IMG/VR virus record: IMGVR_UViG_3300005471_000046
Span: 1-28,147 of that record
Strand: one strand, 5' to 3'
Length of the DNA: 28,147 bases
From: a virus
Shown here: one piece after another, positions 4,712-28,147 of the stretch
Numbering within the stretch: position 1 is the stretch's first letter
Layout: every line of letters begins with the position of its first letter
The notes under the pieces: generated by a model
The model's database searches: none
The model's input: only the letters and a program-made list of their open reading frames with translations
Told to the model about the DNA's origin: nothing
Translations under genes and position numbers: made by a program

Positions 4712-5464
4712 TCAAGCTCGCCCAAAGAGGTTGTTGTAGCCGGTAGATGCCGCCCGACCCATGTTGCCAAAGGCCGTCTCCCCAGTCCGTCCCGGCGTGA
4801 AGCCGGAGATGGCTGCGCTGCCGAGACCGAGGATGTTCTGCCATCCGGTATTGCGGGCGGCCGCCGTTGCCTGCGCGGCGTTGAAGTTGGTGCTGGCGTC
4901 GGCGCCATACGAACTGGCCTCCCGATCCGCCGCCGCCGTGTAGGCCCCACCGATGTTGCCGCCCGTGCGCAGAGCGATGTCGGCCATCGTCCCTGCGCCT
5001 TGCTGCTCTTGCTGGCCGCGCTGAAACAGCGGATTGACGAAGTTCTCGTTGAACCCGCGCGTTGCCGTGTCGGACGCCGCCTTGATACCGGCGCCGCTGT
5101 AAACACCCGGCCCGCTGGCGCCGTTGTTGCGCCGCGCCACACTGCGTTGGGCGACATCGGCCACCCGCATCCAATTCGGGTTGTCCCAATAGGACTTGCC
5201 CGCCGTCTCTGCGGCCGGCGCCCCGTTGAGCCCCATCACATCCGACCAGGCTTTGTAGGCCTGCGGTTTGGCGTAGGGCGAGACAGCGGTCCGCGCTTCG
5301 TCGCCGGCACTGGTGTAGGCGCCGATCGCCGCGTCGCGGCCGGCCGTCGTGGCGCCGCGCGCCGACGCACTCGCGGCCAGTGCCGCGTCGCGACCTTGTG
5401 CGATGTCGCGCCTCTGCGTCGTGCCGAAGAATGAGCCCAGAAAGTCGCCGATGCCCGATGCCAT
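4712..5464 (-). CDS. Putative virion / ejection protein, Ala-Gly-rich (250 aa)
   Basis: The N-terminus (MASGIGDFLGSFFG) is a short amphipathic or weakly hydrophobic segment, followed by Ala/Gly/Arg-rich repetitive sequence (ALAASASARGATTAGRDAA), a central aromatic patch (KSYWDNPNWMRVADVAQ) and a Gly-rich C-terminus ending NNLFGRA. Small Ala/Gly-rich proteins with this layout are typical of the first DNA-transfer protein in podovirus ejection cassettes. It is followed by two larger proteins of similar style. No catalytic motif is visible. The gene sits 3 bp after the fibre-like gene upstream. It could instead be an ordinary minor head protein. Confidence 0.65.
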   Translation of the reverse strand: MASGIGDFLGSFFGTTQRRDIAQGRDAALAASASARGATTAGRDAAIGAYTSAGDEARTAVSPYAKPQAYKAWSDVMGLNGAPAAETAGKSYWDNPNWMRVADVAQRSVARRNNGASGPGVYSGAGIKAASDTATRGFNENFVNPLFQRGQQEQQGAGTMADIALRTGGNIGGAYTAAADREASSYGADASTNFNAAQATAAARNTGWQNILGLGSAAISGFTPGRTGETAFGNMGRAASTGYNNLFGRA

Positions 5465-5467
5465 GGC

Positions 5468-5911
5468 TCACTGATCTCCAAAGAAGCTAACCATGACGAT
5501 CGAGGCGTCGGTCGCCGTGCCGGCTGATCTGTTTACTGTCGTGAAGCGAAACGCCGATGCGGTCGGCGTCGCCCCGAACGATGCGATCAGCGTCGAGCCC
5601 GACAGAAACGCGTTGACCACAGCGCAGTAGTTGGCGCTGGCAAACGGCGTCGTGAAGTTCACCGTATAATCGCCAACGCCGTTGTCCGTGATTGACGCGA
5701 CATTGTAGCTGTCGTCGATGGCGACCACGCCGGTACCGTTGAACCGTACCCACGCCTTGGCAACACCGCCGTGCGCAGCGATCGCCGCCGCAATCTGCGT
5801 CGCGGTTTGGTCGCTGCTGCGCAGCTGCTTCCAGAAATTGAACCACGCGCGCGTGACGCCGCCCGTGCCGTATAGTGGCTCGCTCGAATGCGGGATCGGG
5901 AAGGTGACCAT
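5468..5911 (-). CDS. Fibre-tip-like virion protein (147 aa)
   Basis: After an N-terminal helix-prone part (RAWFNFWKQLRSSDQTATQIAAAIAAHGG) the sequence enters a beta domain starting KAWVRFNGTGVVAIDDSYNV and continuing SITDNGVGDYTVNFTTPFASANYC. This WVxFNG..V.I..SyNVaSIтDNG.GdYTvnFt pattern is a recurring module in phage tail fibres and other receptor-contacting virion proteins, so a role at the fibre tip is likely. The C-terminus (DASIVMVSFFGDQ) is the usual end of that module. ATG at 5911 overlaps the previous stop by one base (TGATG). It is much shorter than a full fibre and may form a trimeric add-on or baseplate tip. Confidence 0.75.
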   Translation of the reverse strand: MVTFPIPHSSEPLYGTGGVTRAWFNFWKQLRSSDQTATQIAAAIAAHGGVAKAWVRFNGTGVVAIDDSYNVASITDNGVGDYTVNFTTPFASANYCAVVNAFLSGSTLIASFGATPTASAFRFTTVNRSAGTATDASIVMVSFFGDQ

Positions 5912-6414
5912 CAGTCCTTCTTGCCGCCAGGGATCACATCCAGTGCGCCGCGCCTTTTTTCAGCTGCCGCCTGTCGCAGACGAGCAAGGATGGCTTCCCT
6001 CTCGGGTCCTTGGAGCGCCGCTGTCAGCGAGCCGTAGCCAGGCAGGTCGTCATTGGCGAACCGGCTTGGCCGGCGATACAGATTGCCACTAACGGCCCCT
6101 TGGAATATGGGATCGAATTTATCGGCCATGGCTTCAACCCCAAGCGCCTCTGGGGGAGGGGCCATCTTGCCGAAATCGGCCGGCTCTCGTGGATACTGGC
6201 GGGCAAGCCTTGCGGCCATCACGCTATCCGCCATCAAGGCATTGGCGCTGCCCGCGCGAAGCGCCATCGGCCCATAGGTAAGCGCCTTCTGCAGAAAGTC
6301 CTTCAGTAGCGGCTTTTGCGACGCCCACAGATCCCACAACGGCTGCGGCGACTGATCGGATACACCATAGCTTGCGGCGTCTTCGCCATAAGGATCGAGC
6401 GCGTTCCTATCCAT
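5911..6414 (-). CDS. Unknown virion-module protein (167 aa), RNAL N-terminus
   Basis: I do not recognise a family. The protein begins MDRNALDPYGED and is otherwise helical and Ala/Arg/Pro-rich, with a charged C-terminus (VIPGGKKD). The first residues echo those of two other small proteins here: the 174-residue protein upstream of the portal (MADYDRNALAGD) and the 99-residue protein beside the tail hub (MDITRNKLAG). It is tightly placed, 3 bp after the tail hub gene and one base overlapping the fibre-like gene, so it is co-translated with tail genes and probably is a minor virion or assembly component. Confidence 0.75.
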   Translation of the reverse strand: MDRNALDPYGEDAASYGVSDQSPQPLWDLWASQKPLLKDFLQKALTYGPMALRAGSANALMADSVMAARLARQYPREPADFGKMAPPPEALGVEAMADKFDPIFQGAVSGNLYRRPSRFANDDLPGYGSLTAALQGPEREAILARLRQAAAEKRRGALDVIPGGKKD

Positions 6415-6417
6415 TGG

Positions 6418-7860
6418 TCAGCCCTTCACGGCCACAGCATCGACGGCAAACCCCGTCACGCATTTGGCCACCGCCGCCGAGCACGAGAAGCGGAACACCT
6501 TGCCGTCCTCGTCGCTCATGCCGAAGCGGAACATCTTGACCTTGGTGCGAAACGCGCCGATGGCGCCCATCGAAGCCGTGCGCTCCGCCGCCCACGTCTT
6601 GCCGTTGTCGTCGGAGTGCGACACCATGATCTGCGGATCGGAGTTGGCCGTGTTGGTCGAATTGATGCCGACGCCCGGCACCACGTCGATATGGATGGCG
6701 TTGAACTTCATGGGGTTCGGCCAGGCGTGAATGGCCGGCGGCTGGATCGTCATGATCAGCGGCTCGCCGGCCTCCGTATACGTATCCCGATCCATCTCGT
6801 AGAGCGTGCCGGCGGCGTAGTCGCCGAGAATGATCTTGGTGCCGAAGGTGGTGATCTGGCTGATGCGCCAGCGGGAAAGCCCATAGCTCTCGCGCTCGTG
6901 CCACTGCCCCGTCACAAAATCATAGACCCACGTGAACGCCGTGCCGATGATGGCGTAGAAGGTATGGCCGCCCTTGCTCCACGTGCCCGATCGCAGATCG
7001 GCCGGGTCGGCCTCACCCTCGATGGCGCGATCGACGGCGTGCGTCGATATCTTGGTGCCGGAGTAGCCGTTGAGGATCATCACCCCAGCATAGGCGCCCT
7101 GCGCATCGGTGGCGGCAAAGGCGATGCTGTCCGTGGTCGAGCCGCCGGCCAGAACCGTGACCTCGCGCACGCTGCCCGCCGAGTAGCAGCCGATGTTGGT
7201 CGCCTGCGCCCGCTCGAACGGGAAGTCCGCCGCCCCCGTGTTGACCCAGAACTCGATCGACCGTGGCCCGAACAGCGCCAACTCACGTCCGCGCGTCGCC
7301 CCGATCATCAGCCCGTCGGGATTGGCCAGCGCGGAGGAAAAGTCGAGCGCGTCGACGGTGATGTCGTCGATGGCCGTGATGAAAAACCGCCCGTCCTCGA
7401 TGGTAAGCACGAAATAGCCGTCGATCGAGGTGATCGAGTTGGGCGCCGGCAGGTCGGCGTCGCTGATCTGCGTGAGGACGTTGCTCTCGATGGTGAAAAA
7501 CAGCCCATCCGACACGATGCCGATCTGCGCCGGGTCAGCCCGGTTGCGGGCCATGTACACCGGGCCAGTGGTGGCAATGCCGCCCAAGGCCGACACCACG
7601 GCGGCGCTCGTCACATGCACGGCCACGGAGCCGATCACGGCGTACATGTCGGACGCGTCGAGCGCCAGCATGGCGCGGACGCCGGCCGCGACGCCAGGGG
7701 ATGCAAAGGTCGTGAACCCGTCGCTGGCGTAGAGCGGAAAGCGTATCTTGCCCTCCTCGCCCAACTCTTCGGCGTAACAGTTCACCAGACGCGCGGCGCT
7801 GTCCTGGCCGTGCCGGCCGGGATTGGAGCGAACACCGAGCGAGACGGGCTGCAGGGCCAC
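6418..7860 (-). CDS. P22 gp10-like tail hub / packaged-DNA stabilisation protein (480 aa)
   Basis: Length matches P22 gp10 (about 470 residues). Diagnostic features include an N-terminal RLVNCYAEELGEEGK with FPLYASDGFTTFASPGV (gp10-type proteins have 'NMLA...SFPGI' here), the central motif RSIEFWVNTG (gp10: STIEYFSLTG), and WVYDFVTGQWHERESYG (gp10: VYD...QW). A C-terminal SDDNGKTW Asp-box also occurs in this family. In P22 the protein forms the hexameric hub between head-tail connector and needle, keeping packaged DNA inside. The start is GTG at 7860; no strong ribosome site is seen, and the gap to the upstream gene is 6 bp. Its presence is the best evidence that the particle has a P22-type short tail. 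Confidence 0.8.
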   Translation of the reverse strand: MALQPVSLGVRSNPGRHGQDSAARLVNCYAEELGEEGKIRFPLYASDGFTTFASPGVAAGVRAMLALDASDMYAVIGSVAVHVTSAAVVSALGGIATTGPVYMARNRADPAQIGIVSDGLFFTIESNVLTQISDADLPAPNSITSIDGYFVLTIEDGRFFITAIDDITVDALDFSSALANPDGLMIGATRGRELALFGPRSIEFWVNTGAADFPFERAQATNIGCYSAGSVREVTVLAGGSTTDSIAFAATDAQGAYAGVMILNGYSGTKISTHAVDRAIEGEADPADLRSGTWSKGGHTFYAIIGTAFTWVYDFVTGQWHERESYGLSRWRISQITTFGTKIILGDYAAGTLYEMDRDTYTEAGEPLIMTIQPPAIHAWPNPMKFNAIHIDVVPGVGINSTNTANSDPQIMVSHSDDNGKTWAAERTASMGAIGAFRTKVKMFRFGMSDEDGKVFRFSCSAAVAKCVTGFAVDAVAVKG

Positions 7861-8530: not shown

Positions 8531-9064
8531 TCAGTTCACGTAATCAGGGAACGGAACGGTGTCGAAGAACGGAGAGGCGTCTGCCAGAATGTCGCCATCT
8601 GTCGCGCTGATGGAATTCGTTCCGGTCGTCTCCCATCTGTAGCGCCAGCGCCCAGCCTCATCTGTGGTGATGATGCCGACATAGATGCCGATGTCCTCTT
8701 GCTCGATCTCATCGTCCTCGCCAAAGGTGTAGGTCGTCTGGACAGCACTCGGTGAAAACACCCGCAACGTCACGGCGCCAGGGTCGATATAAAGGCCGGT
8801 CTCATCCTTGAACGTAATCTTGATGCGCACCGGGTTGGCTATGGCCTGGCGTCCCGGACGCACCATCAACCGAACTTGGTCTAGCCGGCCCCTCTGGCTC
8901 AGAACCGAGACGACGGTGTCGCCAGCTTCGGTGGCACTCAGCTCGAATGGGCTGACTATGATCCCTTCGAGGGTATCGTTCGCCTCGGTGACGCTTAAGA
9001 CGAAGATCCCGCCGCTGTCGGCTTCCGCCAGCGCCAGGACTGCAAGGGCATCGAAACCTAGCAT
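8531..9064 (-). CDS. Minor virion protein with MLGFDALA N-terminus (177 aa)
   Basis: The N-terminal MLGFDALAVLALAEADSG is a short motif I associate with minor structural proteins of alphaproteobacterial phages; the rest is beta-rich. Residues about 70-175 (RPGRQAIANPVRIKITF, DPGAVTLRVFSPSA, IYVGIITTDEAGRWRYRWET) look like one immunoglobulin-like beta-sandwich, a fold often used for phage surface or tail adaptor domains. No catalytic residues are evident. The stop is 2 bp before the connector gene. Function beyond virion component is unknown. Confidence 0.75.
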   Translation of the reverse strand: MLGFDALAVLALAEADSGGIFVLSVTEANDTLEGIIVSPFELSATEAGDTVVSVLSQRGRLDQVRLMVRPGRQAIANPVRIKITFKDETGLYIDPGAVTLRVFSPSAVQTTYTFGEDDEIEQEDIGIYVGIITTDEAGRWRYRWETTGTNSISATDGDILADASPFFDTVPFPDYVN

Positions 9065-9262: not shown

Positions 9263-10234
9263 TCACGGAGGCGGCGCTAAATCAAAGTCTACGAACCGCA
9301 TAGTCGTGTCTTGATCTTGTGCATAAAAAACACCCACTTTCCCGTTCGGCAACAGACACATGCTCGAATAACTGGAGCCCGCTGAGTATACCGTGCCCCT
9401 TCCGGCCCAAGTCGCGCCTCCATCCAAGGAGCGCCATACACTCACATTTTGCCTGTTCGACTGGAATATTCCACTGTGGAGCAGATCGCTTCCTACGCTC
9501 AACATCGCCCCCTCTGTGGCGACGCCCGGCATGTCGCCACGAACTGTCGACGTGCCCCAGGTATCACCTTCGTCCGATGAATAGGTGATGATCCTGAAGG
9601 CGGCAACTTGATTGCGGCTTGATGCAATCAGCCTATCATCGTCCAGTTGCGCCACCGTCGTCTCATTGGCGCCTACCGGACCGAATGGTGATGATCGATC
9701 CCACGTCGCTCCTCCGTCGTCCGAGAAAATGGCGTGTGCCTTGTCCGGGTAGGAGCCCCCGCCATAGGCCGGATCTGAATGATTGCCCCCGCAGAGCAAC
9801 CGGCCGCTCGCCAGAACAATCCCCGCGCCCGGCCCTGTCGCGTACCAGCGCCAGTCGGCGTGCCGGACGGCGCTGGTTATATCTGTGGGCGTCTCCCACG
9901 TCGCCCCGCCGTCGTCCGAAAAGGTGTACCATACCGACACTGTATGCGTGCCCGCCCTGATAGCGCCCTCATTCGCTGCCGCTATCTGCGAGCAGTAAAG
10001 CAGATGAAACTTACTAGCGGCCGCGTCACCAATGACGCATGGATTACGAAAGCAGTTAACGCCATCGCTGGCGACCACCTGCGCGGCACCCCACGTCGCC
10101 CCGTTGTCGTCAGACACCCGCGCTTCAATGTCTATGTGGCCGCCGTCTGTCGCAGGGTCATGGTCACGCTCACACAGCGCTATCACATTGGCGCCATCCG
10201 TCGCCAGTGCTGGAATATGATAGGAACTAGCCAT
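9263..10234 (-). CDS. Sialidase-like (GH33-type) beta-propeller with five Asp boxes
   Basis: Starting at ATG 10234 the protein has 323 residues. Five Asp boxes (S-x-D-x-G-x-T-W) lie at residues 41-48, 106-113, 171-178, 219-226 and 269-276, the hallmark of six-bladed sialidase propellers. Other sialidase features are a YHIPAL motif at 5-10 (normally FRIP/YRIP), CERD at 21-24, an Asp in TDGGHIDI (about 30-36), TGPGAGIVLASGRLL at 133-147, ANETTVAQL with Glu191, SSRN with Arg207, SNRQNVSVWRS (Arg261/Arg268) and SSYSSM with Tyr289, the likely nucleophile. So the Asp, Glu, Tyr and two Arg are present, but the first arginine is His6. It probably acts on or binds capsule or surface glycans as a tailspike. 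The frame is open upstream to 10486, overlapping the preceding gene, with no better start found; no signal peptide. Confidence 0.85.
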   Translation of the reverse strand: MASSYHIPALATDGANVIALCERDHDPATDGGHIDIEARVSDDNGATWGAAQVVASDGVNCFRNPCVIGDAAASKFHLLYCSQIAAANEGAIRAGTHTVSVWYTFSDDGGATWETPTDITSAVRHADWRWYATGPGAGIVLASGRLLCGGNHSDPAYGGGSYPDKAHAIFSDDGGATWDRSSPFGPVGANETTVAQLDDDRLIASSRNQVAAFRIITYSSDEGDTWGTSTVRGDMPGVATEGAMLSVGSDLLHSGIFQSNRQNVSVWRSLDGGATWAGRGTVYSAGSSYSSMCLLPNGKVGVFYAQDQDTTMRFVDFDLAPPP

Positions 10235-10277: not shown

Positions 10278-11879
10278 TCAACCCACCGTCGACACGGCAG
10301 TCCACGTTGTGCCGCCATCCGTATTGATATACGCACGGTCCGCAACGCCTGTCCCGTCGCTGCGCATGAACCAAGACCCCTTTGCTGCCGATACCGTGGG
10401 GGCACCCGAGCCGTAATAAATGCCGAACCCGGCAGTCGTTCCAAACAGCAATCTTGCGGATGTGGAGCCAGACGCCGGGGTCGCAACGGCCGGGCGAACC
10501 GTGATCGACGCGTCTGAGCTTATTTTTAGACTTACAGAAGATCCGTTATCTCCAGAAAACAACAGCGCTTGCGTAACGCCACGAAAACAACTATCGCCCG
10601 CAGAAGAGCCAGTTATAACTTCATTGCCGGCCTGCGCCACGCCAAATATGAGTTTAGGTGCGTTGGTCAGAGATACGGTGACAGTTGGATTGAATGCGCC
10701 CGTGGAATTCAATAGAAAGGCATCATTGGCGCCAACATTCATGGTTGTCACGCCGAGCTTTGACACCTTGAAAACACTACTGCCGCCAAGCTGCAGATCC
10801 ACAAGCAGGGAGGCAGCGGCAGAGGCTGTAGCGGTGACGTTGTATTTGATGCCGACCGCGGCGCCGGACGTGTTCCACACGTCCACGAGGTTGAGGAACG
10901 GGGTGGTATCGGCGCCGAGCGCGATGTGGGGAGCGCGCACGCCGAGCCGCTGGGTGCCGCCGGTAAGCAGATTGATCAGCTGCGAGGCCGCATCGTGTGC
11001 CGTTGCCGTCAGATTGAGCTTGATGCCTGAGGGTGTGCCGGATGTATTCCAGGTGCCAGCGCAGTCGACAACGGATTGGGCGCTGGAGCCCGTCAGCGAG
11101 TACCCGGTCGAGCTAATAATACTCTCGTTGGCGGTTCCTTCAGTGATGGTCTGGCCACGCGTCCAGGTGTTATTGAGCGCCAGACCTGGAATGGACTGCG
11201 ACGTTGACGGGAACGTCATGGTGGTGGAATCGGTGCCGGCCAGCGTCAGACTGTGGCTGGCGGTAAGTGTCTTGCCTGCGGCAATTGCTAAAACAAAGGC
11301 ATCGCCACCCGCAAAGGTGCCCGAGTTGTTTACGGTCAGCGTCTTGCTGGCGGCGCCGAACACCAGCGTTCCAGCGTTCGTGCTGACGGTGAAGCCCACG
11401 TTGAACGTGACATCCGCCAACACAGAGAGCGTCCGGGCGCCATCGCCAGTCGTCAGCGTAAAGGTCCGATCCGCCGACAAATCGGAACCGGGCGCGATCG
11501 TCAGCAGATGGCTAGCGTTGGTGTCCCTGACGCGTAGCCCCGTATTGGTGAGCGACAGCTGCTCGATGTCTTCCTTGGCGGCCGTCAGAAATACGCTGGC
11601 TACCCCAGACAAGGTTATCTTGGTCGTGCCAGACGTACCGCCGATCTTGGACAGCAGCACCGTGTCACGCGAAAGCGTTGTGCCGGACGCCGTATAAGTG
11701 CCCCGCCCAATCTCGAAATCGTTCCCGTCCTCAATCGTGTACGTAACTAAATCGCCGTCACCAATGCCAGCCTCCGCAAACGTCGCATAGCGCGCCACGG
11801 CTGAACCCAGCGTAATGGTGCCGGTGCCCGCAGTCGCGGTCGTCATCCGCGCTCGATTGAATTGCTTGTAGATGGCCAT
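10278..11879 (-). CDS. Tail-fibre/spike-like virion protein (533 aa)
   Basis: Residues 8-78 (FNRARMTTATAGTG to RGTYTASGTTLSRDTVLLS) form an N-terminal domain common in phage tail proteins. The body is Thr/Ser/Gly-rich beta sequence, as in fibres, and holds a short internal repeat: WNTSG..xGIKxNxTATA..AAS at about 277-300 and again at 335-358, spaced 58 residues apart. The C-terminus (KGSWFMRSDGTGVADRAYI, then NTDGGTTWTAVSTVG) is a frequent fibre ending. The sialidase gene follows after 43 bp in another frame; together they may form one adsorption apparatus. No intramolecular chaperone signature was recognised. Confidence 0.78.
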   Translation of the reverse strand: MAIYKQFNRARMTTATAGTGTITLGSAVARYATFAEAGIGDGDLVTYTIEDGNDFEIGRGTYTASGTTLSRDTVLLSKIGGTSGTTKITLSGVASVFLTAAKEDIEQLSLTNTGLRVRDTNASHLLTIAPGSDLSADRTFTLTTGDGARTLSVLADVTFNVGFTVSTNAGTLVFGAASKTLTVNNSGTFAGGDAFVLAIAAGKTLTASHSLTLAGTDSTTMTFPSTSQSIPGLALNNTWTRGQTITEGTANESIISSTGYSLTGSSAQSVVDCAGTWNTSGTPSGIKLNLTATAHDAASQLINLLTGGTQRLGVRAPHIALGADTTPFLNLVDVWNTSGAAVGIKYNVTATASAAASLLVDLQLGGSSVFKVSKLGVTTMNVGANDAFLLNSTGAFNPTVTVSLTNAPKLIFGVAQAGNEVITGSSAGDSCFRGVTQALLFSGDNGSSVSLKISSDASITVRPAVATPASGSTSARLLFGTTAGFGIYYGSGAPTVSAAKGSWFMRSDGTGVADRAYINTDGGTTWTAVSTVG

Positions 11880-14764: not shown

Positions 14765-14784
14765 TCAGATCACGTCAGATCACG
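14765..14784. repeat. Tandem 10-bp duplication across the capsid stop codon
   Basis: TCAGATCACG occurs twice in a row (14765-14774 and 14775-14784). On the minus strand this puts CGTGATCTGA CGTGATCTGA at the end of the major capsid gene; the first copy supplies the stop codon TGA. Confidence 0.85.
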
Positions 14785-15904
14785 CATCGCCTACGGCCGC
14801 GGCGAAGACAGTGACCATGCCATGGTCTTTGTACGTCCCAAGGGTGCCGTGCTTGCGCATGACCTTGTTGGCGCCGATCAGCTCCTCGATGCCGATGCCC
14901 GAGAAGAAGTCGTAGTCGTCTTCCTTCTTGGCGGTGAAGCGAGGCTCCTGGCCCCAAGCAATCGCCGTCGACTGCGCACCACACAGGAAGTTTGCGCCGA
15001 TGAGGATGGTGCCGTTGGTGAACGACGGGATTTCCGGGATCTCCCTGCAGATCACGCCGTCATGGATCAGATCGCCGTCCTGGAACAGCGGGTTCTTGTC
15101 CATGCCGTTGCCTTCGCGGGACCGGGCATCGCGGTTGTTGGCGATGATGGTGGAGTCGGCCTTGAGGTCGCGGAAGCACGTGGGATTGCAGAACATCACG
15201 TAGTACTCGCGGCCGTCCTCGGCGCTGGACCGGATCGGACGGATGTGCGGGTCGCACGTCTTGGCGAGACGCTTGGCCACGCCGATCATGCTGGACGACA
15301 GCTTGTCGGCCGTGTTGTCGATGGTGGCGATCGACGTGGCGAAATCGGTTGCGTTGTTGGCGACGAGCGCACCGAACAGCGTGCGGTCGGTATTGGCCGC
15401 CCGCCAGGTGTTGAGCGCGGTCGAGCCGGCCACCGCGTTGCGGCCGCTGTCGAGCGGCGTCCAAAACGTGGAGTTTGCCACGCCGGAGAAGGCGACCGAG
15501 CCCATGGCATCGATGATGCGATCGCGCAGCCGGTTGGTCGACCACTCCTTGAGCAGCGGACGCACCGCTTCGCGCGCATTGCTCGCGTCATAGTGCTCGT
15601 CCTGCTTGGAGAGCTCCACCGCGTGCCTGGAGAACTGCACGGTGATGGAGTGGGTGTGCTTGCCCAGGCTCTCCTCCGAGCCGGACAGGCGGGTGTTGCC
15701 CTCGACGCCGGACGAGGCGAGGCGACCCACGAGCGGGATGGTCAGCGACTTGCCGCCGGTCGTCATCTCGTAGCAGGTATGGATCGGCACCATGGGATTG
15801 TTGCCCATGTAGGGCGCAAATCCGGTGTCGCGCACGTACTCGCGCCAGTATTCGCGGCGGTATCTGATCTCTTGGAGGTCAGAGGGAGTGCTGGTGGTCG
15901 CCAT
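14780..15904 (-). CDS. Major capsid protein (374 aa)
   Basis: The gene follows the scaffold gene and encodes a soluble protein of typical coat length. The N-terminus (YWREYVRDTGFAPYMGNN, then IPLVGRLASSGVEGNTRL) and the downstream sequence resemble the DUF4043/N4 gp56-like capsid group with a HK97-type fold, including the early 'Y.R.t.f..yMG..' pattern and the central helix (VRPLLKEWSTNRLRDRIIDAMG). Near the C-terminus DFFSGIGIEELIGANKVMRK and FAAAVGDA complete it. It assembles the icosahedral head around the scaffold. ATG at 15904, 6 bp after the scaffold stop. Family placement is from recollection of motifs; the coat function is well supported by context. Confidence 0.85.
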   Translation of the reverse strand: MATTSTPSDLQEIRYRREYWREYVRDTGFAPYMGNNPMVPIHTCYEMTTGGKSLTIPLVGRLASSGVEGNTRLSGSEESLGKHTHSITVQFSRHAVELSKQDEHYDASNAREAVRPLLKEWSTNRLRDRIIDAMGSVAFSGVANSTFWTPLDSGRNAVAGSTALNTWRAANTDRTLFGALVANNATDFATSIATIDNTADKLSSSMIGVAKRLAKTCDPHIRPIRSSAEDGREYYVMFCNPTCFRDLKADSTIIANNRDARSREGNGMDKNPLFQDGDLIHDGVICREIPEIPSFTNGTILIGANFLCGAQSTAIAWGQEPRFTAKKEDDYDFFSGIGIEELIGANKVMRKHGTLGTYKDHGMVTVFAAAVGDA

Positions 15905-17085: not shown

Positions 17086-17490
17086 ATGCAGTCGCGTAAG
17101 CGTTCGCCTCAGGCCCCCGGTTGGGGCAAGGGCTGGTCTTACATCGGCGGCGACACCGTGGACTACGAGGCCAGCCTCGACTTCGATGCTGTCATTCTGG
17201 CGTCGGCCCGCGGCGATGCTCACTGCATCCAAGGCGTCGACGACTGCTCCAGGAAGTCGGAGCCCTCGGGCGGAATAGGCAGCCCTTGCAACCCATCGGG
17301 AACAGGGGCGCCGACTTCGCCAGAAGGCCCAGCAAGCCCGTTCGGTGGCGGAGCGCCATCCATGCCCGGCGGCCCCATTTGCTTACCAGCAGGCCCCGCA
17401 AGGGCGTTGGGGGGCATTCCAGAGCCTTGCGGCCCGCCGACGCCGCTCATCATGCCGCGCGCCGCGTCCAAAGTGGTCGGCTCGCGATAA
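17086..17490 (+). CDS. Opposite-strand frame overlapping portal C-terminus (134 aa)
   Basis: The frame starts 4 bp after the 70-residue gene with AAGGAG 7 nt upstream of ATG, a very good site. The first 45 residues lie in otherwise unused DNA and look like protein (QAPGWGKGWSYIGGDTVDYE, ASLDFDAVILASARGDA). From 17220 on the frame is the antisense of the portal's Gly/Pro-rich tail, giving low-complexity sequence (GAPTSPEGPASPFGGG). The gene start is thus credible, but the overlapping C-terminal part may be incidental read-through. Function unknown. Confidence 0.42.
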   Translation: MQSRKRSPQAPGWGKGWSYIGGDTVDYEASLDFDAVILASARGDAHCIQGVDDCSRKSEPSGGIGSPCNPSGTGAPTSPEGPASPFGGGAPSMPGGPICLPAGPARALGGIPEPCGPPTPLIMPRAASKVVGSR

Positions 17491-19418
17491 TAGAACGGGA
17501 AGGCTTGGCCCATCGCTTCGGGCGGCAGGCCGATCTCGGCCAAGGTCTTGGCGGTACCAGCGCGCTTGGCCTCGACGTCGGCTTGCGCCTGGTCGACCTT
17601 GACGGCCGCCAGCAACTCCTCGAGTTCGGCCATGCGCTTCTGCAGCGCGGCCAACTCCGGCGGCGGCGCTTTGAACTCCGCCATCTTCCTGAGGATCTGC
17701 TCTTTCTCGCCGATGTTGGACAGCTCGATCAGCAATTCCGGCGGCACCACGCCCGGCCCCAATTGCGAAAGCTGCTCCATCAGCTCCTCGCGCATCGTCA
17801 CCGTATCGGGGCCTTCGTCGAGGATCACATCGATGTCGATCTCGGCGACCGCGTTCTCCATGCCGACGACCTGCCCCGTGTTGGGGTCGACGACGGGACG
17901 GTTGAGGGTGAGGTGCTGGATCGCTTCGGGATCGCCCGACACGCGGATCACCCGCTCGTCGGTCCAGAACTGGCGCACGAGGTTCCAATCACGGCGATAG
18001 CACCTCAACTTCCATTCCCTGATGCGCTCGAACACAGGCGACAATTCCGTCATGCCCGAGTTCTGCTGGGCGAGGATGGCGCGACCGGACTGCTTCTCGA
18101 CGCCGCGGCCGATCAGGCCGGGGTTGGGTCCGAGGTTCTCGATCTCGGCCTTGGCCTCCTGCAGCAGCTCGAGGTTGCCTTGCGTCTCGGCCGTGTGATC
18201 GATGACGTCGAACTCGAAACCCTTGTTGTAGTCGACGTGGCCGTCGGGCTTGGCCATCTCGGATTTCATTTTGTCGACGTCGTCGACGGCGCCCTTCTCG
18301 GCCTTGGTCTGACGCATCGTCAGCAGATGCAGCGCCTTGGACGAGCGCTTGTTGATCTCGTCTTGGATCGGGATCATGTCGCGCACGACGCCGTAGCGAT
18401 CGCCGCGTTCGTCGACGTAGGGGCTCCACGGATCGTACGGGTGCACCGTCTCGCCGTCCTCGTCGACATAGGGCGAGAGGCAATTCATGGGCGGCGTCGT
18501 CACCATCTCGCCGGTCGCGTCGTCCATCTTCTGCGACGGCTCGGACGGGCACAGCGAGACGGCCCCCACCAGGAAGTCGAACAGCCAGTTACCCTGATAC
18601 TTGTACCAGATCTGAATGACGAAGATGCGGCGCGTGTTGGGGTCGACCCAATTGCGCTCCTTGTCGAAGAACTGCGGCAGCGGGCCATGGCTCGAGCCCG
18701 ACATGGCGTGCGTTGCCAACTGGTCGATCTGCTCGGCGGCAAAGGGCAGCATCTCTTTGGCCTGGTCCATCTCCATCCACTGCGCCTCGCCGCAGTAGAG
18801 CGAGTCGGAGAAGTCCCAACGCTCGGAGCGCGGATCGTAGAACCAGCGATCCGACTGCACCTGATGCTTCTTGATCTCCAGGCGGCCCTTTTTCTGCACG
18901 ACGCCGGCCCACTGCACGCCGACGCCGCGGATCAAGCCATCGGAGGCGCCATCAGAGAATATCGCCTGCGCCTTGTTGACGTCGGCGACGTAGCGCAAGG
19001 TCGAGGTGCCGATATAGGCTGCCCTCTCACCCTGCGGATTGCGCGGGATGCCCTTGGGATCACGGCGCTGCGATTGCTCGACGCCGACCAGGAAGTCGAC
19101 CTTGCGCTTGATGCGGTTCTTGGGCGTGGCCGGCTGCCGGCGGCGACGCAACGCCTTCAGCTCAGTGTCGGTGAACTGCTTGCCGTGGTAGTAGCGCGAG
19201 GCTTTGTAGGCTTCCTGGTTCTCGCTCTCCTTGGCCTGCTCCCAGGCGCGGTACATTTCGAGCAGTCGATTGGCCGGCATCCGCGGCGCCACGGGCTGCG
19301 GCTCTGGGGCCGCCTGCGTGGGCATTTGGGACAGCATCGGCTCCGGCCCCATGCCCATCGGCGGCATGCCGAGCGGCTGAGCCGCCTGCTGGTAGGAGAT
19401 GTAATCGGTGAGGGCCAT
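17220..19418 (-). CDS. Portal protein, P22-type (732 aa)
   Basis: Length matches P22 gp1 (725 residues). After a Met/Pro/Gln-rich N-terminal 45 residues the portal body begins (ANRLLEMYRAWEQAKESENQ, YYHGKQFTDTELKALRRRRQ, KNRIKRKVDFLVGVE), with the 'N.i...v..l.G......d' pattern of P22-like portals and QSDRWFYDPRSERWDFSD further on. A long helix (GFEFDVIDHTAETQGNLELL to LGPNPGLIGRG) and a C-terminal coiled coil (ALQKRMAELEELLAAVKVDQ) follow, then a Gly/Pro/Met-rich tail of about 80 residues. Twelve copies form the DNA entry and exit channel where terminase docks. ATG overlaps the previous stop (TGATG). Confidence 0.9.
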   Translation of the reverse strand: MALTDYISYQQAAQPLGMPPMGMGPEPMLSQMPTQAAPEPQPVAPRMPANRLLEMYRAWEQAKESENQEAYKASRYYHGKQFTDTELKALRRRRQPATPKNRIKRKVDFLVGVEQSQRRDPKGIPRNPQGERAAYIGTSTLRYVADVNKAQAIFSDGASDGLIRGVGVQWAGVVQKKGRLEIKKHQVQSDRWFYDPRSERWDFSDSLYCGEAQWMEMDQAKEMLPFAAEQIDQLATHAMSGSSHGPLPQFFDKERNWVDPNTRRIFVIQIWYKYQGNWLFDFLVGAVSLCPSEPSQKMDDATGEMVTTPPMNCLSPYVDEDGETVHPYDPWSPYVDERGDRYGVVRDMIPIQDEINKRSSKALHLLTMRQTKAEKGAVDDVDKMKSEMAKPDGHVDYNKGFEFDVIDHTAETQGNLELLQEAKAEIENLGPNPGLIGRGVEKQSGRAILAQQNSGMTELSPVFERIREWKLRCYRRDWNLVRQFWTDERVIRVSGDPEAIQHLTLNRPVVDPNTGQVVGMENAVAEIDIDVILDEGPDTVTMREELMEQLSQLGPGVVPPELLIELSNIGEKEQILRKMAEFKAPPPELAALQKRMAELEELLAAVKVDQAQADVEAKRAGTAKTLAEIGLPPEAMGQAFPFYYREPTTLDAARGMMSGVGGPQGSGMPPNALAGPAGKQMGPPGMDGAPPPNGLAGPSGEVGAPVPDGLQGLPIPPEGSDFLEQSSTPWMQ

Positions 19419-19945: not shown

Positions 19946-21511
19946 TTAGACCGTCTTCCAATCGTTGTCGGCGTCGACTTCGTCACGGCTCGCCGATGTG
20001 TAGTCGGATCGGTTGTTGGGCTCGACGACGGGCGGGATGGTGCCGCCGATCATTTCGTCGAGCATGCGGCCGATCAATCCGAGCATGTCCACGTCGTCAT
20101 CCGTTCGGCCGGCCGGGAAGGTGTGCAGCACGTTGAGCACTTCGGCCAGCCACGGCGCATTGCGCGGCCAGTACACTTTGCCCATGGCGGCGCGGGCCTG
20201 GAACGAACGAGAGCGCGTCGGCTTGTCGGACACGGAGACGAACTGCTCGCGCCGGAAGTAGACTTTGCGCTCGCGCATGCGCTGGGAGATGAACGGGCCG
20301 ACGCTCTTGATGATCTGGCCGTCCTCTTCGGCCCAGCACATGGGCTTGTACTTGTTGGCGAGATCGAGCAGCACCTCGACCCAGATGTTGGATGCCGTCT
20401 GTCCGCGCCAGATGTCGGCGACATAGATGTTGTCGTCGGGATCGACGCCGACCACGCCGTGCACGGTGAAGTCGCCGCCCTTGGCAGTCACGGCGTAGTC
20501 GGAGGCACCATAGAAGCGCAGATGCTTGGGCAGGTCGTCGTACCAGCGCCACCATTCGCGCTTGTAGTAGTCGCCTTCGGCCGGCGTCGGTGTTTGCTGG
20601 TACAACGCCGACCAGTCGCGATCGCCGATCGCGCGCTTGATCTCATCGAGACGCTTGACGGGATACTTGCCGGGCCACAGCGCAACGCGTTCACCGGCCT
20701 TGGTGGTGATGGCGGGAAGCTCCAACACCTCCCATTGATCGCCGCCGCGCTGCTGTTCCAACAGTAGCCGGCCAGCGAGATCGTCTTCATGCCAGCGAGT
20801 CTGGATCAGAACTATGGCGCCCTCGAACTTCTTGGCCTCACCGGCCTCGATGTCGTCGAGCAATCCGTGCCACAGCCAATCGTCGTCGAGCACTTCGCTG
20901 CTGTCTATGTCGCTTTCGAGCCGCGTGTAGGCAGTCGACGTGTACCATCGCCACACGCGCTCGCGAATGATCTCGCTGTCGGCTTCCTGGCGGTCCTTGA
21001 ATGGATCGTCGATCAGGAAGACGTGGGCGCCGCGCCCCGTTGTGCCGGTGCCGACGCCGGCCGCGACATACATGCCGCCTTTCTGTGTGTGCCACCGGTT
21101 GGCTGCGCTCGAATCCTCGGCCAACCTCACATCGAACAACGAACTATAGGCTGGCGAGGCGACGATATTGCGAACGCCGCGGCCGAAGTCACCGGCCAGA
21201 TCGGCGTTGTAGCTGGCCGCAATAATGTTGCGCTCTGGATTGCGCCCCACGAAGTAGGCCGGGAACCTGCGTGACGCCAGCTCCGACTTGCCGTGCCGCG
21301 GCGGCATGAAGATCATCAGCCGCTTTTTTTCACCGCGCTCGATTGCCTCCAACGCCTTGGCAATCAACTCGTGGTGCGGCGCCGGCCGATACTTCGGGAA
21401 CGTGTACCTAGTGAACCCGATCAGGCTTCCGCGGGCCATTCTTCGGCGCAGCAACTCCATCGCCGCTGCCGCCTCTCGCGATGACTGCGAGTTCTCTATC
21501 GCTAAGGTCAT
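19946..21511 (-). CDS. Terminase large subunit (521 aa)
   Basis: The ATPase domain has Walker A MPPRHGKSE (69-77), Walker B VFLIDDP (164-170) and a coupling motif LIQTRWHEDD (235-244). The RNase H-like nuclease follows with acidic residues in YGASDYA (Asp338), CWAEEDG (395-397) and DDDVDM (471-475). Together these package DNA into the head and cut concatemers. A region of about 30 residues (around 199-230) rich in Asp/Glu lies between TAYTRL and the GAIVLIQTRW strand, longer than in compact relatives. The ATG at 21511 overlaps the small-subunit gene by 104 bp and has a weak ribosome site; internal ATGs at 21460 (GAGGCGGC-like sequence upstream) and 21439 are alternatives, neither losing any known motif. 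Confidence 0.95.
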   Translation of the reverse strand: MTLAIENSQSSREAAAAMELLRRRMARGSLIGFTRYTFPKYRPAPHHELIAKALEAIERGEKKRLMIFMPPRHGKSELASRRFPAYFVGRNPERNIIAASYNADLAGDFGRGVRNIVASPAYSSLFDVRLAEDSSAANRWHTQKGGMYVAAGVGTGTTGRGAHVFLIDDPFKDRQEADSEIIRERVWRWYTSTAYTRLESDIDSSEVLDDDWLWHGLLDDIEAGEAKKFEGAIVLIQTRWHEDDLAGRLLLEQQRGGDQWEVLELPAITTKAGERVALWPGKYPVKRLDEIKRAIGDRDWSALYQQTPTPAEGDYYKREWWRWYDDLPKHLRFYGASDYAVTAKGGDFTVHGVVGVDPDDNIYVADIWRGQTASNIWVEVLLDLANKYKPMCWAEEDGQIIKSVGPFISQRMRERKVYFRREQFVSVSDKPTRSRSFQARAAMGKVYWPRNAPWLAEVLNVLHTFPAGRTDDDVDMLGLIGRMLDEMIGGTIPPVVEPNNRSDYTSASRDEVDADNDWKTV

Positions 21512-24067: not shown

Positions 24068-24673
24068 CTAGGTGATTTTCTCCAGCGCCGCAACTGAAAT
24101 CGGTATTTCCTGCAGCGTGCCGAAGAAGCTCAGCAGAATGCGTGCCTTTTTTGCATCAGCATCGATGTCCTTGACGGTGACCTCGTGGCCGCGGAACGCC
24201 TCGCTGGTGATGCGGGCACGATCACCGACCTTGAGACCCCGGATGGATTGAGAGGCTGGGAGCGATCGACCATTCAACTGCATGAGAAACCTCACATCGT
24301 CTTGGGTGAGCTGGGCGGGCTTGCCGCCGAAGCCGACGACGCCGCGGACCAGCGCGCGCCCCGGCATCCGCTCGAGCAAGCCTTCGATCGCCTGCTTGAA
24401 CAGAAACAGGTTCATTGGCCCATCAAAGCCGGCGAACACGTAGCCGCGGAAGATGGGATAGGGCTTGGCCTCGGTCTTGGTGGTGGCGCCGACGCGCTGC
24501 CAATAGGTGTCTTTGGGCAAGAGCGTCTTGTGGCCGAGGGCCTTGACTTGAGCTTGCGCGCCATACTCGGCCGACGGAACCGTCGTCAGCGCGTACCAGC
24601 GCAGCGCCATCAGATCGACGGGCGTTGCGGTTGCCTCCAACCCGACATTCAACCCGACATTTTCGCTGGCCAT
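24068..24673 (-). CDS. NusG/RfaH-like transcription factor (201 aa)
   Basis: Residues about 25-112 form an NGN-type domain (RWYALTTVPSAEYGAQAQVK, then PYPIFRGYVFAGFD), where WYALTT and the PIFRGYVF stretch match the conserved RNA-polymerase-binding core of NusG and RfaH. Residues about 147-200 form a KOW domain (LKVGDRARITSEAFRGHEVT, ILLSFFGTLQEIPISVAALE). NusG-like proteins clamp RNA polymerase and suppress pausing or termination; phage versions may act as antiterminators. The start ATG overlaps the upstream gene by 25 bp; a second in-frame ATG at 24610 would still keep both domains. It is the last gene of the early block, directly before the structured control region. Confidence 0.85.
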   Translation of the reverse strand: MASENVGLNVGLEATATPVDLMALRWYALTTVPSAEYGAQAQVKALGHKTLLPKDTYWQRVGATTKTEAKPYPIFRGYVFAGFDGPMNLFLFKQAIEGLLERMPGRALVRGVVGFGGKPAQLTQDDVRFLMQLNGRSLPASQSIRGLKVGDRARITSEAFRGHEVTVKDIDADAKKARILLSFFGTLQEIPISVAALEKIT

Positions 24674-25858: not shown

Positions 25859-26079
25859 GACACCGACTCCACGTCGGGTCGCCTATTCCAAATATCGACG
25901 GGGCTTTTCGGATTGGCGATCGCCGGGGTTCGCAGATCGCACGCCCTGCAGCGCACAGAGTAAAACTGCCGATCACGGTAGCCCATCTCGAACCCGCCGC
26001 TTCCCCAGCATTTGTCAAACCAAGCCTCGCCACCACAGCACGGGCACGGCTTCAGCGTCGGCTTCTCGCTGTCCGTCAT
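25855..26079 (-). CDS. Lar-like zinc-ribbon protein (74 aa)
   Basis: The pattern LKPCPCCGG near residues 9-17, a later CRAC pair (about residues 44-47), and the closing PVDIWNRRP match the Lar (restriction alleviation) family: CPxCG..., CxxC and a conserved W-N-R-R end. These small zinc-binding proteins in phages and prophages can modulate host type I restriction, but many members are untested. It follows the methyltransferase gene with an ATGA overlap, so restriction evasion is a consistent theme. Function assignment is by family resemblance only. Confidence 0.75.
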   Translation of the reverse strand: MTDSEKPTLKPCPCCGGEAWFDKCWGSGGFEMGYRDRQFYSVRCRACDLRTPAIANPKSPVDIWNRRPDVESVS

Positions 26080-27065
26080 TCCGCCGTCTCCGTTTCCAGA
26101 GCATCGAACAGGCTGGCCGTCTTGGTATCCTCTGGCGCGCCTTCATAGGCAATGCGCACGTTCTTGATGGCCTGGCGATAGTAGGACGGCTTGAGCTCCA
26201 CGCCGAGCGCCTTCCGCCCCGCCCGCAAGGCGCTGTAGACCTCGCTGCCGACGCCCATGAACGGCGTCAGCACCGTCTCGCCGGGATTGCTCCACAGCAC
26301 CAGCACGCGATCGATCACGTCGAGCTGAAGCGGGTGGCAATGTTTCTCGTCTTCCGTATCGCGGGCCTCGCGGAACGGCAGCACCCGGCCGATGCGGATA
26401 TCATCCCAGAACGCCGAGGCGTATTGTCGCCAAATCCAATGCGAGTAGCGGTTCTCGATCTGATTGCCGGTCCAGCCGCGATAGCGCAGCAGCTCGGCCG
26501 GCATCTCGCGCTCGCCAGCGTACTCCATCAGCCCGGTCGGGTGCGTGATCGGAATGGCGTTCTTGCCATGCCGGCGGAACACCAAGAGGTAGTCGGCCGA
26601 TGCCACGCTGCAGCGCGAGCTGTCCTCGATCAGCGATCGATGTGCGAGGTTCTTGGCCATGGTGCGGTTGCGCACCGCCAGCGGCTCTTTCCATATCGCG
26701 TAGCGAGCGATGAAGTGCCAGCCCTCTTTCTCGTGCAGGCGGATAATGTCGCCGGGGAAGTCGATCAGATGGTCGGTGCCGCTGTTGCCGGACGGGACAT
26801 CCATGCAGTGCACCGCCGTCATGCGGCCCGGCAACGTAATCCGATGCAGCTCGCGCACCACAAAGGCGTAGTGCTCGAAAAACTGTGCGTAGCTGCCGCA
26901 GTTCGAGAGGTCGCGGTCAGACGATGAATAGTGGAACAGCCCGCCGAACGGAGGTGAGTACACGGACAAATGCACTTTCTCGGCCGGCATCCCCGCCATG
27001 ACCTCGATGCAGTCGCCGTTGTAGGCCGCATAACGATCCGTCAGTTCCTGGTCGATCACAGCCAC
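26076..27065 (-). CDS. DNA methyltransferase, SPPF type (329 aa)
   Basis: The catalytic motif IV SPPFGG lies at about residues 37-42, near the N-terminus, and the SAM-binding FxGxG motif in TPFMGVGSE lies at 267-275, followed by ALGVELKPSYY. That order (catalytic motif first) is the beta class of amino-methyltransferases; SPPF/SPPY points to N4-cytosine more than N6-adenine (DPPY), but does not settle it. The central region (SDRDLSNCGSYAQFFEHYAF, MTAVHCMDVPSGNSGTDHL) resembles phage solitary methyltransferases. I use GTG 27065 (AGGAGG 10 nt upstream inside the helicase gene); GTG 27059 with a 4-bp GTGA overlap is an alternative. No cognate nuclease is adjacent, so it probably protects phage DNA or marks packaging. 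Confidence 0.88.
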   Translation of the reverse strand: MAVIDQELTDRYAAYNGDCIEVMAGMPAEKVHLSVYSPPFGGLFHYSSSDRDLSNCGSYAQFFEHYAFVVRELHRITLPGRMTAVHCMDVPSGNSGTDHLIDFPGDIIRLHEKEGWHFIARYAIWKEPLAVRNRTMAKNLAHRSLIEDSSRCSVASADYLLVFRRHGKNAIPITHPTGLMEYAGEREMPAELLRYRGWTGNQIENRYSHWIWRQYASAFWDDIRIGRVLPFREARDTEDEKHCHPLQLDVIDRVLVLWSNPGETVLTPFMGVGSEVYSALRAGRKALGVELKPSYYRQAIKNVRIAYEGAPEDTKTASLFDALETETAE

Positions 27066-28147
27066 GACGGCAATCCCTCCTGCTTGTTGAATGCAATGGT
27101 GCGATCGATGTTGATCGCGTTGTTCATGTGGCGCACGAGCTCGGCGAACATCTTGTCGGCGGCCACCGCCTTGCGCTGCAGGTTGGCCAGCACGTTGCTG
27201 TCGCCGTCGGTGGTGACGATGTCGACCGTGACAGGGCGCTTTTGGCCGAAGCGCCAGCACCGCCGCACGCTCTGGTAATAACCCTCGAACGAGTGCGACG
27301 GGAACGATACCGAGTGATTGCAGTGCTGGAAGTTGAGGCCCCAGGCGCCGATCTTCTCTTTGGTGACGAGCACGCGCGCCTTGCCGTCGATGAAGGCCAG
27401 GAACTTCTCTTCTTTGGCGTCCTCGCTGTGCTTGCCACTCACCTGCACACAGTCAGAGATCATGCGCTCGAGCGTGTCACCTTCGTCGTTGAGCTGGCAC
27501 CACACCAAGGCGGGCTGGCCCGTGCCGTTGACCAGCCCAGCCGATCGGGCGCAGCGCTCCTCGATAGTGCGGCGACGTTCCTCGCGCTGCTCTTTGAGGC
27601 CGACGGCGGGCCGCGCGAACATCTCGCCGGCCGGCAACGTCACGGTGTCGACCAGATGCTCGCGCTCAGTCAGCGGCGGCAGAATGAAAGCGCCGTCCTC
27701 GAAGCCCAGATCGGACGGCTTGCGCACGGCGCGCGACCACGAGCACACCCACTGCCAGAACGGCGTTTCGGCGTGGCCCTTGAGGCGCCACTTGGCCGTC
27801 TCTTCCAGAATGCGGTCCCGCTCACTGTGGCGAGGCCGGCGCACATGAGGTTTGATGCTGTTGCCCTGCTGGTTTTTGAAAAAGCGGGACAGCATGTCCA
27901 TGTAGCCGAGATGGCCCAAGGCCTCGCTGCTGGTGCCGAGCTCTATGTATTCGTTGGGCGAAGGCGTCGCCGTGCACAGCAGTCGATAGCGCATCTTGCG
28001 CATGCGGTCGGTGATCTGCTGCCGGCGCGCACCGTCGAAGGATTTCAGGATGGCGCTTTCGTCGCACACCATGCCCGCGATGTCATCGGCGCCGTCGAAG
28101 TAGTGCAAGCGGTCGTAGTTGGCGATGTTGATGCCGGGCCTGATCTT
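27056..28147 (-). CDS. SNF2-family helicase, partial (N-terminus outside window)
   Basis: The frame is open to the right edge (363 codons visible), so the Walker A region is missing. Visible residues 6-17 (INIANYDRLHYF), a DES box at about 29-31 (CDESAILKSF, the DEAx motif II), TATPSPNEY at about 59-67 (motif III), ARVLVTKEKIGAWGLNFQ (motif V) and QSVRRCWRFGQKRPV at about 292-306 (motif VI, QxxxRxxRxGQ) identify an SNF2-type superfamily 2 ATPase. Such phage helicases often lie beside a methyltransferase and may unwind or remodel DNA during replication. The gene ends inside the start region of the methyltransferase. Confidence 0.85.
   Translation of the reverse strand, partial: KIRPGINIANYDRLHYFDGADDIAGMVCDESAILKSFDGARRQQITDRMRKMRYRLLCTATPSPNEYIELGTSSEALGHLGYMDMLSRFFKNQQGNSIKPHVRRPRHSERDRILEETAKWRLKGHAETPFWQWVCSWSRAVRKPSDLGFEDGAFILPPLTEREHLVDTVTLPAGEMFARPAVGLKEQREERRRTIEERCARSAGLVNGTGQPALVWCQLNDEGDTLERMISDCVQVSGKHSEDAKEEKFLAFIDGKARVLVTKEKIGAWGLNFQHCNHSVSFPSHSFEGYYQSVRRCWRFGQKRPVTVDIVTTDGDSNVLANLQRKAVAADKMFAELVRHMNNAINIDRTIAFNKQEGLPSWL

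Follow-up and report, generated by a model that had tools for sequence, protein, structure and literature searches.

We found that a phage genome fragment encodes a sialidase-like propeller that, judged by its residues, has kept its fold and its residues for cleavage and whose pocket has changed on the sugar-binding side. What is new here is the remodelled carboxylate pocket; compact phage proteins of glycoside hydrolase family 33 (GH33) as such were already known. The first arginine of the sialidase arginine triad is regarded as a hallmark of the family. A phage protein that has neither this arginine nor the second conserved active-site glutamate, and that keeps the residues for cleavage, is a natural test of the role of that arginine. 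The protein probably reads or cuts a surface sugar other than the one recognized by ordinary sialidases, and it may lead to an enzyme that acts on bacterial nonulosonic acids; few hydrolases of these sugars are known.

The gene and its fold

The gene occupies positions 9263-10234 of the window, by which we mean the whole 28,147-base virus record IMGVR_UViG_3300005471_000046. It lies on the minus strand, starts with ATG at 10234, stops at 9263, and encodes a six-bladed, GH33-derived Asp-box propeller of 323 amino acid residues. The original prediction gave exactly these coordinates and left the strand unstated; the plus strand over the same interval contains no open frame and is full of stops. 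An alternative in-frame ATG at 10318 gives a protein of 351 residues, with 28 residues added at the N-terminus. In the model of this longer form the added part was disordered (pLDDT <50 over residues 1-19) and brought no gain; thus, we preferred ATG 10234 as the start.

The protein belongs to the GH33/BNR_2 sialidase superfamily. It matched Pfam BNR_2 with an E-value of 2.4e-31, far over the cut-off, and gave in NCBIfam only a weak neuraminidase match, far under the cut-off of that model. By sequence, the closest solved relatives in the PDB were bacterial GH33 sialidases (7.7e-22 to 1e-18). The AlphaFold2 model, built with 44 homologues (pLDDT 93, pTM 0.92), and its comparison by Foldseek indicated the six-bladed beta-propeller fold of sialidases: the best match was the Micromonospora viridifaciens sialidase 1eur (TM 0.88, E 1.2e-24), and every one of the best 50 PDB fold matches listed by Foldseek was a sialidase-fold entry. 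The GH33-type fold that had been proposed earlier is therefore borne out by the Pfam and PDB matches, the model and the fold search alike.

Two other assignments were considered and rejected. For the ten-bladed Vps10/sortilin propeller, the Sortilin-Vps10 profile gave an E-value of 0.004 and 16.4 bits against a cut-off of 33, and the best folds were six-bladed sialidases; the original prediction had named a confident match to a non-glycosidase propeller family, such as VPS10, among the results that would speak against it, and no such match appeared. In the case of the GH58 endosialidases, all of the 323 residues belong to the propeller, and no match to a stalk or chaperone domain was obtained in Pfam or PHROG.

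Five canonical Asp boxes (S-x-D-x-G-x-T-W) begin at residues 41, 106, 171, 219, and 269, all encoded on the minus strand: SDDNGATW (10091-10114), SDDGGATW (9896-9919), a second SDDGGATW (9701-9724), SSDEGDTW (9557-9580), and SLDGGATW (9407-9430). In 20,000 shuffles of the residues, the mean number of such boxes was 0.002 and the maximum was 1. The five boxes, the TDGGHIDI motif, and residues E191, R207, R261, R268, and Y289 each lie where they had been predicted to lie.

Kept and changed residues of the active site

We compared the active site with solved and cellular sialidases by alignment and with a census of 93 homologues (80 cellular and 13 viral). The homologues were fetched with patterns of the Asp-box, G-x-I-D, and WYATGPG types, none of which spans positions 6 or 305, and only the best matches were kept; one viral sequence (L164) was left out as a near copy of another (L056).

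In both the alignment and the census, five catalytic residues are retained in the phage protein, all encoded on the minus strand. These are Asp30 (10145-10147), the predicted acid/base; Tyr289 (9368-9370), the predicted nucleophile; Glu191 (9662-9664), its predicted partner; and Arg207 (9614-9616) and Arg261 (9452-9454), the second and third arginines of the triad. Two features of GH33 are absent, namely the first triad arginine of the F/YRIP motif, where the protein has His6, and the second conserved glutamate 16 residues after the tyrosine, where it has Ala305. The claim of a sialidase active site thus holds for most of the catalytic residues, but not for the complete set.

His6 (CAT, 10217-10219, minus strand) turns the motif YRIP into YHIP at a position where all of the 92 homologues with a residue there have arginine. 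Ala305 (GCA, 9320-9322, minus strand) stands where 93/93 homologues have glutamate, and LLYE reads VFYA. Neither R6H nor E305A occurs in any of the 93 homologues; the His/Ala pair rests on one contig, and no homologue that we found shares both changes. The viral GH33 copies in the census all keep the first arginine and the second conserved glutamate. Two further changes concern the pocket region: Asp24 (GAC, 10163-10165, minus strand) replaces a conserved pocket arginine (93/93 homologues), and Arg63 (CGT, 10046-10048, minus strand) replaces a conserved glycine (92/93 homologues) adjoining Asn64.

To place these changes against the background of the whole protein, we counted the columns in which at least 95% of the homologues have one residue. 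Of these 45 columns, 38 are unchanged in the phage protein, the seven departures being R6H, R24D, G63R, G74S, R99V, G200D, and E305A. As this proportion is high and all the Asp boxes are kept, the protein has not undergone general decay. For the same reason, the retention of the five catalytic residues is not strong evidence by itself, since 84% of all the highly conserved columns are kept. Asp30, Glu191, Tyr289, Arg207, and Arg261 are retained despite an end branch of 2.41, which is among the longest in the tree; the tree leaves the place of the query itself unsettled.

In other sialidases, the second conserved glutamate keeps the first triad arginine in position. A tyrosine and a conserved glutamate 16 residues on are found as Y314 and E330 in a characterized sialidase (PMC9782813). 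In NanH of Tannerella forsythia, mutation of the first triad arginine (R212) abolished activity, and R231 touches the C4 hydroxyl group when a ligand is bound (PMC9472817). Asp24 of the phage protein aligns with this R231 (R212 plus 19, give or take one residue of loop length).

Predicted specificity and comparison with known enzymes

Because mutation of the same arginine inactivated NanH, the phage protein may be inactive. It would then be a catalytically dead lectin with a sialidase fold, which has lost hydrolysis together with the first arginine and the second conserved glutamate and only binds glycans during adsorption. The otherwise invariant nature of the two lost residues and the long branch of the query agree with such a lectin as well. 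However, the acid/base aspartate, the Tyr/Glu pair, and two triad arginines are all present, and Amuc_1547 of family GH181 is an active sialidase with Gln367 in place of one triad arginine (PMC12018670). This enzyme differs from the phage protein in that its tyrosine nucleophile is replaced too (Gln350/His349) and another position of the triad is substituted. We regard the lectin as rather unlikely.

An ordinary exosialidase of the Neu5Ac type, with His6 or Arg63 standing in for the first arginine, would accord with the top sequence and fold matches, which are Neu5Ac sialidases. The substitution occurs in none of the 93 homologues, however, the R212 mutant of NanH is inactive, and a pocket arginine is replaced by Asp24 too; thus, we consider an ordinary exosialidase improbable. 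The GH33 exosialidases used for comparison (1eur, 8gn6 from Porphyromonas, and NanH 7qxo from Tannerella) have the six-bladed Asp-box propeller, the acid aspartate, the Tyr/Glu pair, and the second and third triad arginines in common with the query. Unlike them, the query has His6, Ala305, and Asp24, contains no CBM, and is encoded by a phage.

We favour altered specificity over the lectin. On this reading, to which we give a little less than an even chance, the remodelled pocket would pick a nonulosonic acid other than Neu5Ac, and the protein would be a GH33-derived propeller of the adsorption module acting in the recognition or clearing of the host surface. The target would be a nonulosonic acid on the lipopolysaccharide, capsule, or flagellum of the host, for example a pseudaminic, legionaminic, Kdn-type, or Kdo-type sugar. 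From the retained residues we infer a retaining hydrolysis of the exo type, in which Tyr289 would serve as the nucleophile, activated by Glu191, and Asp30 as the acid/base. Arg207 and Arg261 would grip the acid group of the sugar; His6 and Ala305, with Asp24 and the new Arg63 beside the asparagine of the pocket region, would reshape the pocket. A stronger version is that an adsorption-module enzyme with the His/Ala swap and nearby charge changes cuts one of these sugars that ordinary sialidases leave uncut, and so forms a class of its own, new in specificity, among the proteins with this fold; this is possible, though doubtful.

Known enzymes with incomplete triads bear some resemblance to the query. 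PA2794 of Pseudomonas aeruginosa (2w38), compared here by its description, is also without the first triad arginine, and it is also without the acid/base aspartate, which the query keeps. It has a sialidase-like six-bladed propeller as the query does, and differs in having an extra trimerization domain. Pseudaminic acids, rather than host sialic acid, seem to be its substrates (PMC3658417).

The GH58 endosialidase of phage K1F is, like the query, a propeller of a phage tail, and is directed at a polymer of sialic acid. Endosialidases of GH58 keep only two triad arginines. The K1F enzyme differs from the query in being a large trimeric tailspike with a beta-helix stalk, a chaperone domain, and other catalytic residues (the key residues named are H350, R549, E581, R596, and R647), and no relationship between the two was detected by sequence.

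Genome context and GH33 genes of other viruses

The propeller gene starts 43 bases beyond the stop codon of a gene for a fibre-like protein of 533 residues (10278-11879, minus strand), so that the position directly behind a fibre-like gene, as originally described, is correct. The N-terminal domain of this fibre-like protein is common to the fibre-like proteins of related phages, and matches the N-terminus of a 948-residue fibre-like protein from one of them (E 2e-8). The gene gave no match in Pfam or PHROG, and no close relatives of it were confirmed. We considered whether a frameshift might join the fibre to the propeller, as TGAC stands at the stop of the fibre gene and the next frame stays open; the end of the fibre looks normal, inspection by eye showed no slippery site, and the fusion was set aside.

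The next gene downstream of the propeller (8531-9064, minus strand), after the variable adsorption region, has homologues in related phages that begin to match at about residue 66. Its first part contains repeats of the SATEAxDT type and is either a real extension or the result of a wrong start. Further context on the minus strand is given by genes for a head closure protein (6418-7860; phrog_578, 6.5e-87), which is syntenic, a major head protein (14780-15904; phrog_334, 5.3e-58), a portal protein (17220-19418; phrog_156, 1.4e-93), and the terminase large subunit (19946-21511; phrog_38, 2.2e-108). Related phages have the same portal, terminase, major head, and head closure genes and the same gene downstream of the fibre region, and differ in between. 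Such a propeller is missing from all the related phage loci that we found by way of the portal or head protein, and searching four whole related records for BNR_2 likewise gave no match. We infer a location in the virion from this gene order; the propeller would occupy an exchangeable position in the adsorption region of this tailed phage and work in the recognition or clearing of the host surface.

The propeller gene has a lower GC3 (0.64) than the head genes (0.75-0.88), which is consistent with later acquisition. This value, the long branch, and the lack of a close viral relative (peptide patterns derived from the query alone found none) could also indicate a degenerating gene, acquired horizontally and without function. 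Such a gene is very improbable, however, given the intact frame of 323 codons, the five Asp boxes, the highly conserved columns that are kept, and the confident fold prediction. The alphaproteobacterial host proposed in the original prediction is not established, as the terminase is closest to that of Pseudanabaena phage Pam1 (56%), followed by Acetobacter and others.

Alignment-based searches found stand-alone GH33 genes of about 350 residues in at least 11 actinophage-type contigs (L055, L056, L057, L147-L151, L157, L159, and L164); thus, stalkless compact GH33 proteins are not unusual in phages, contrary to the original suggestion. Most of these genes have a minor tail gene on one side (phrog_7565 where tested) and an endolysin gene on the other (Amidase_2 where tested); in actinophage-type contigs, compact stand-alone GH33 genes thus recur as a tail-and-lysis cassette. 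The cassette is made up of a tape measure gene, tail genes, the minor tail gene, a GH33 gene for about 350-390 residues with the full catalytic set, an amidase-type endolysin, and a small membrane protein, with the GH33 gene at about position 5400-7050 of each locus. The actinophage-type proteins resemble the query in their compact propeller, their place in a tail module, and their identity of up to about 40%. They differ in having intact catalytic residues, minor tail and endolysin genes as neighbours, and siphovirus-type tails with a tape measure, whereas the query lies among a set of head and fibre genes. As the walls of Streptomyces carry a teichulosonic acid with the sialic acid Kdn (PMC11481543), the actinophage-type genes may encode phage Kdnases. 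The GH33 copy in L151 (5866-7035) opens with a signal-peptide-like stretch (MPMRLRTVALAVAGLLAAAAVILAPAPAHA), which suggests that this copy is secreted from the host cell rather than built into the virion. In L058, the GH33 domain is found inside a fibre-like protein of 829 residues.

These genes bear on whether the query protein is part of the particle. Non-virion cargo, either produced late and set free as the cell lyses or made by a prophage, and acting on surface sugars off the particle, would explain why no virion-attachment domain was recognized in the bare 323-residue propeller; stand-alone GH33 genes elsewhere adjoin endolysins, and the L151 copy has its signal-peptide-like start. The query gene, however, is flanked by the fibre gene and conserved virion genes, all on one strand, the protein shows no apparent signal peptide, and L058 carries the domain within a large fibre-like protein. 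We consider such cargo quite improbable.

A link between GH33 and viral tails has also been described for viral genomes of anaerobic digesters. In that survey, GH33 is enriched in the viral genomes and is their commonest carbohydrate-enzyme family, and roughly half of the GH33, GT2, and GT4 ORFs carry the annotation of a tail or tape measure protein (PMC9377139); the digester GH33 ORFs are known there by family assignment. Matches from Escherichia coli phages spanned only 35% of the query, with 30% identity. The only full-length match in the phage collection, MT835944 (L002), was rejected as a phage relative, as it is a Bacteroides-type locus with SusC/SusD-like neighbours. The record, MT835944.1, is labelled Bacteriophage sp. 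and carries a sialic acid locus with SusC/SusD-like, sialidase, and sugar-utilization genes; it is apparently a bacterial contig filed as a phage.

Elsewhere in the window, a gene at 24068-24673 (minus strand) encodes a NusG-like transcription antitermination protein (Pfam NusG, 6.3e-8). At the end of the contig, two ORFs in overlapping frames (26076-27260 and 27056-28108, minus strand) encode an N6/N4 DNA methylase domain (4e-16) and the C-terminal domain of a helicase.
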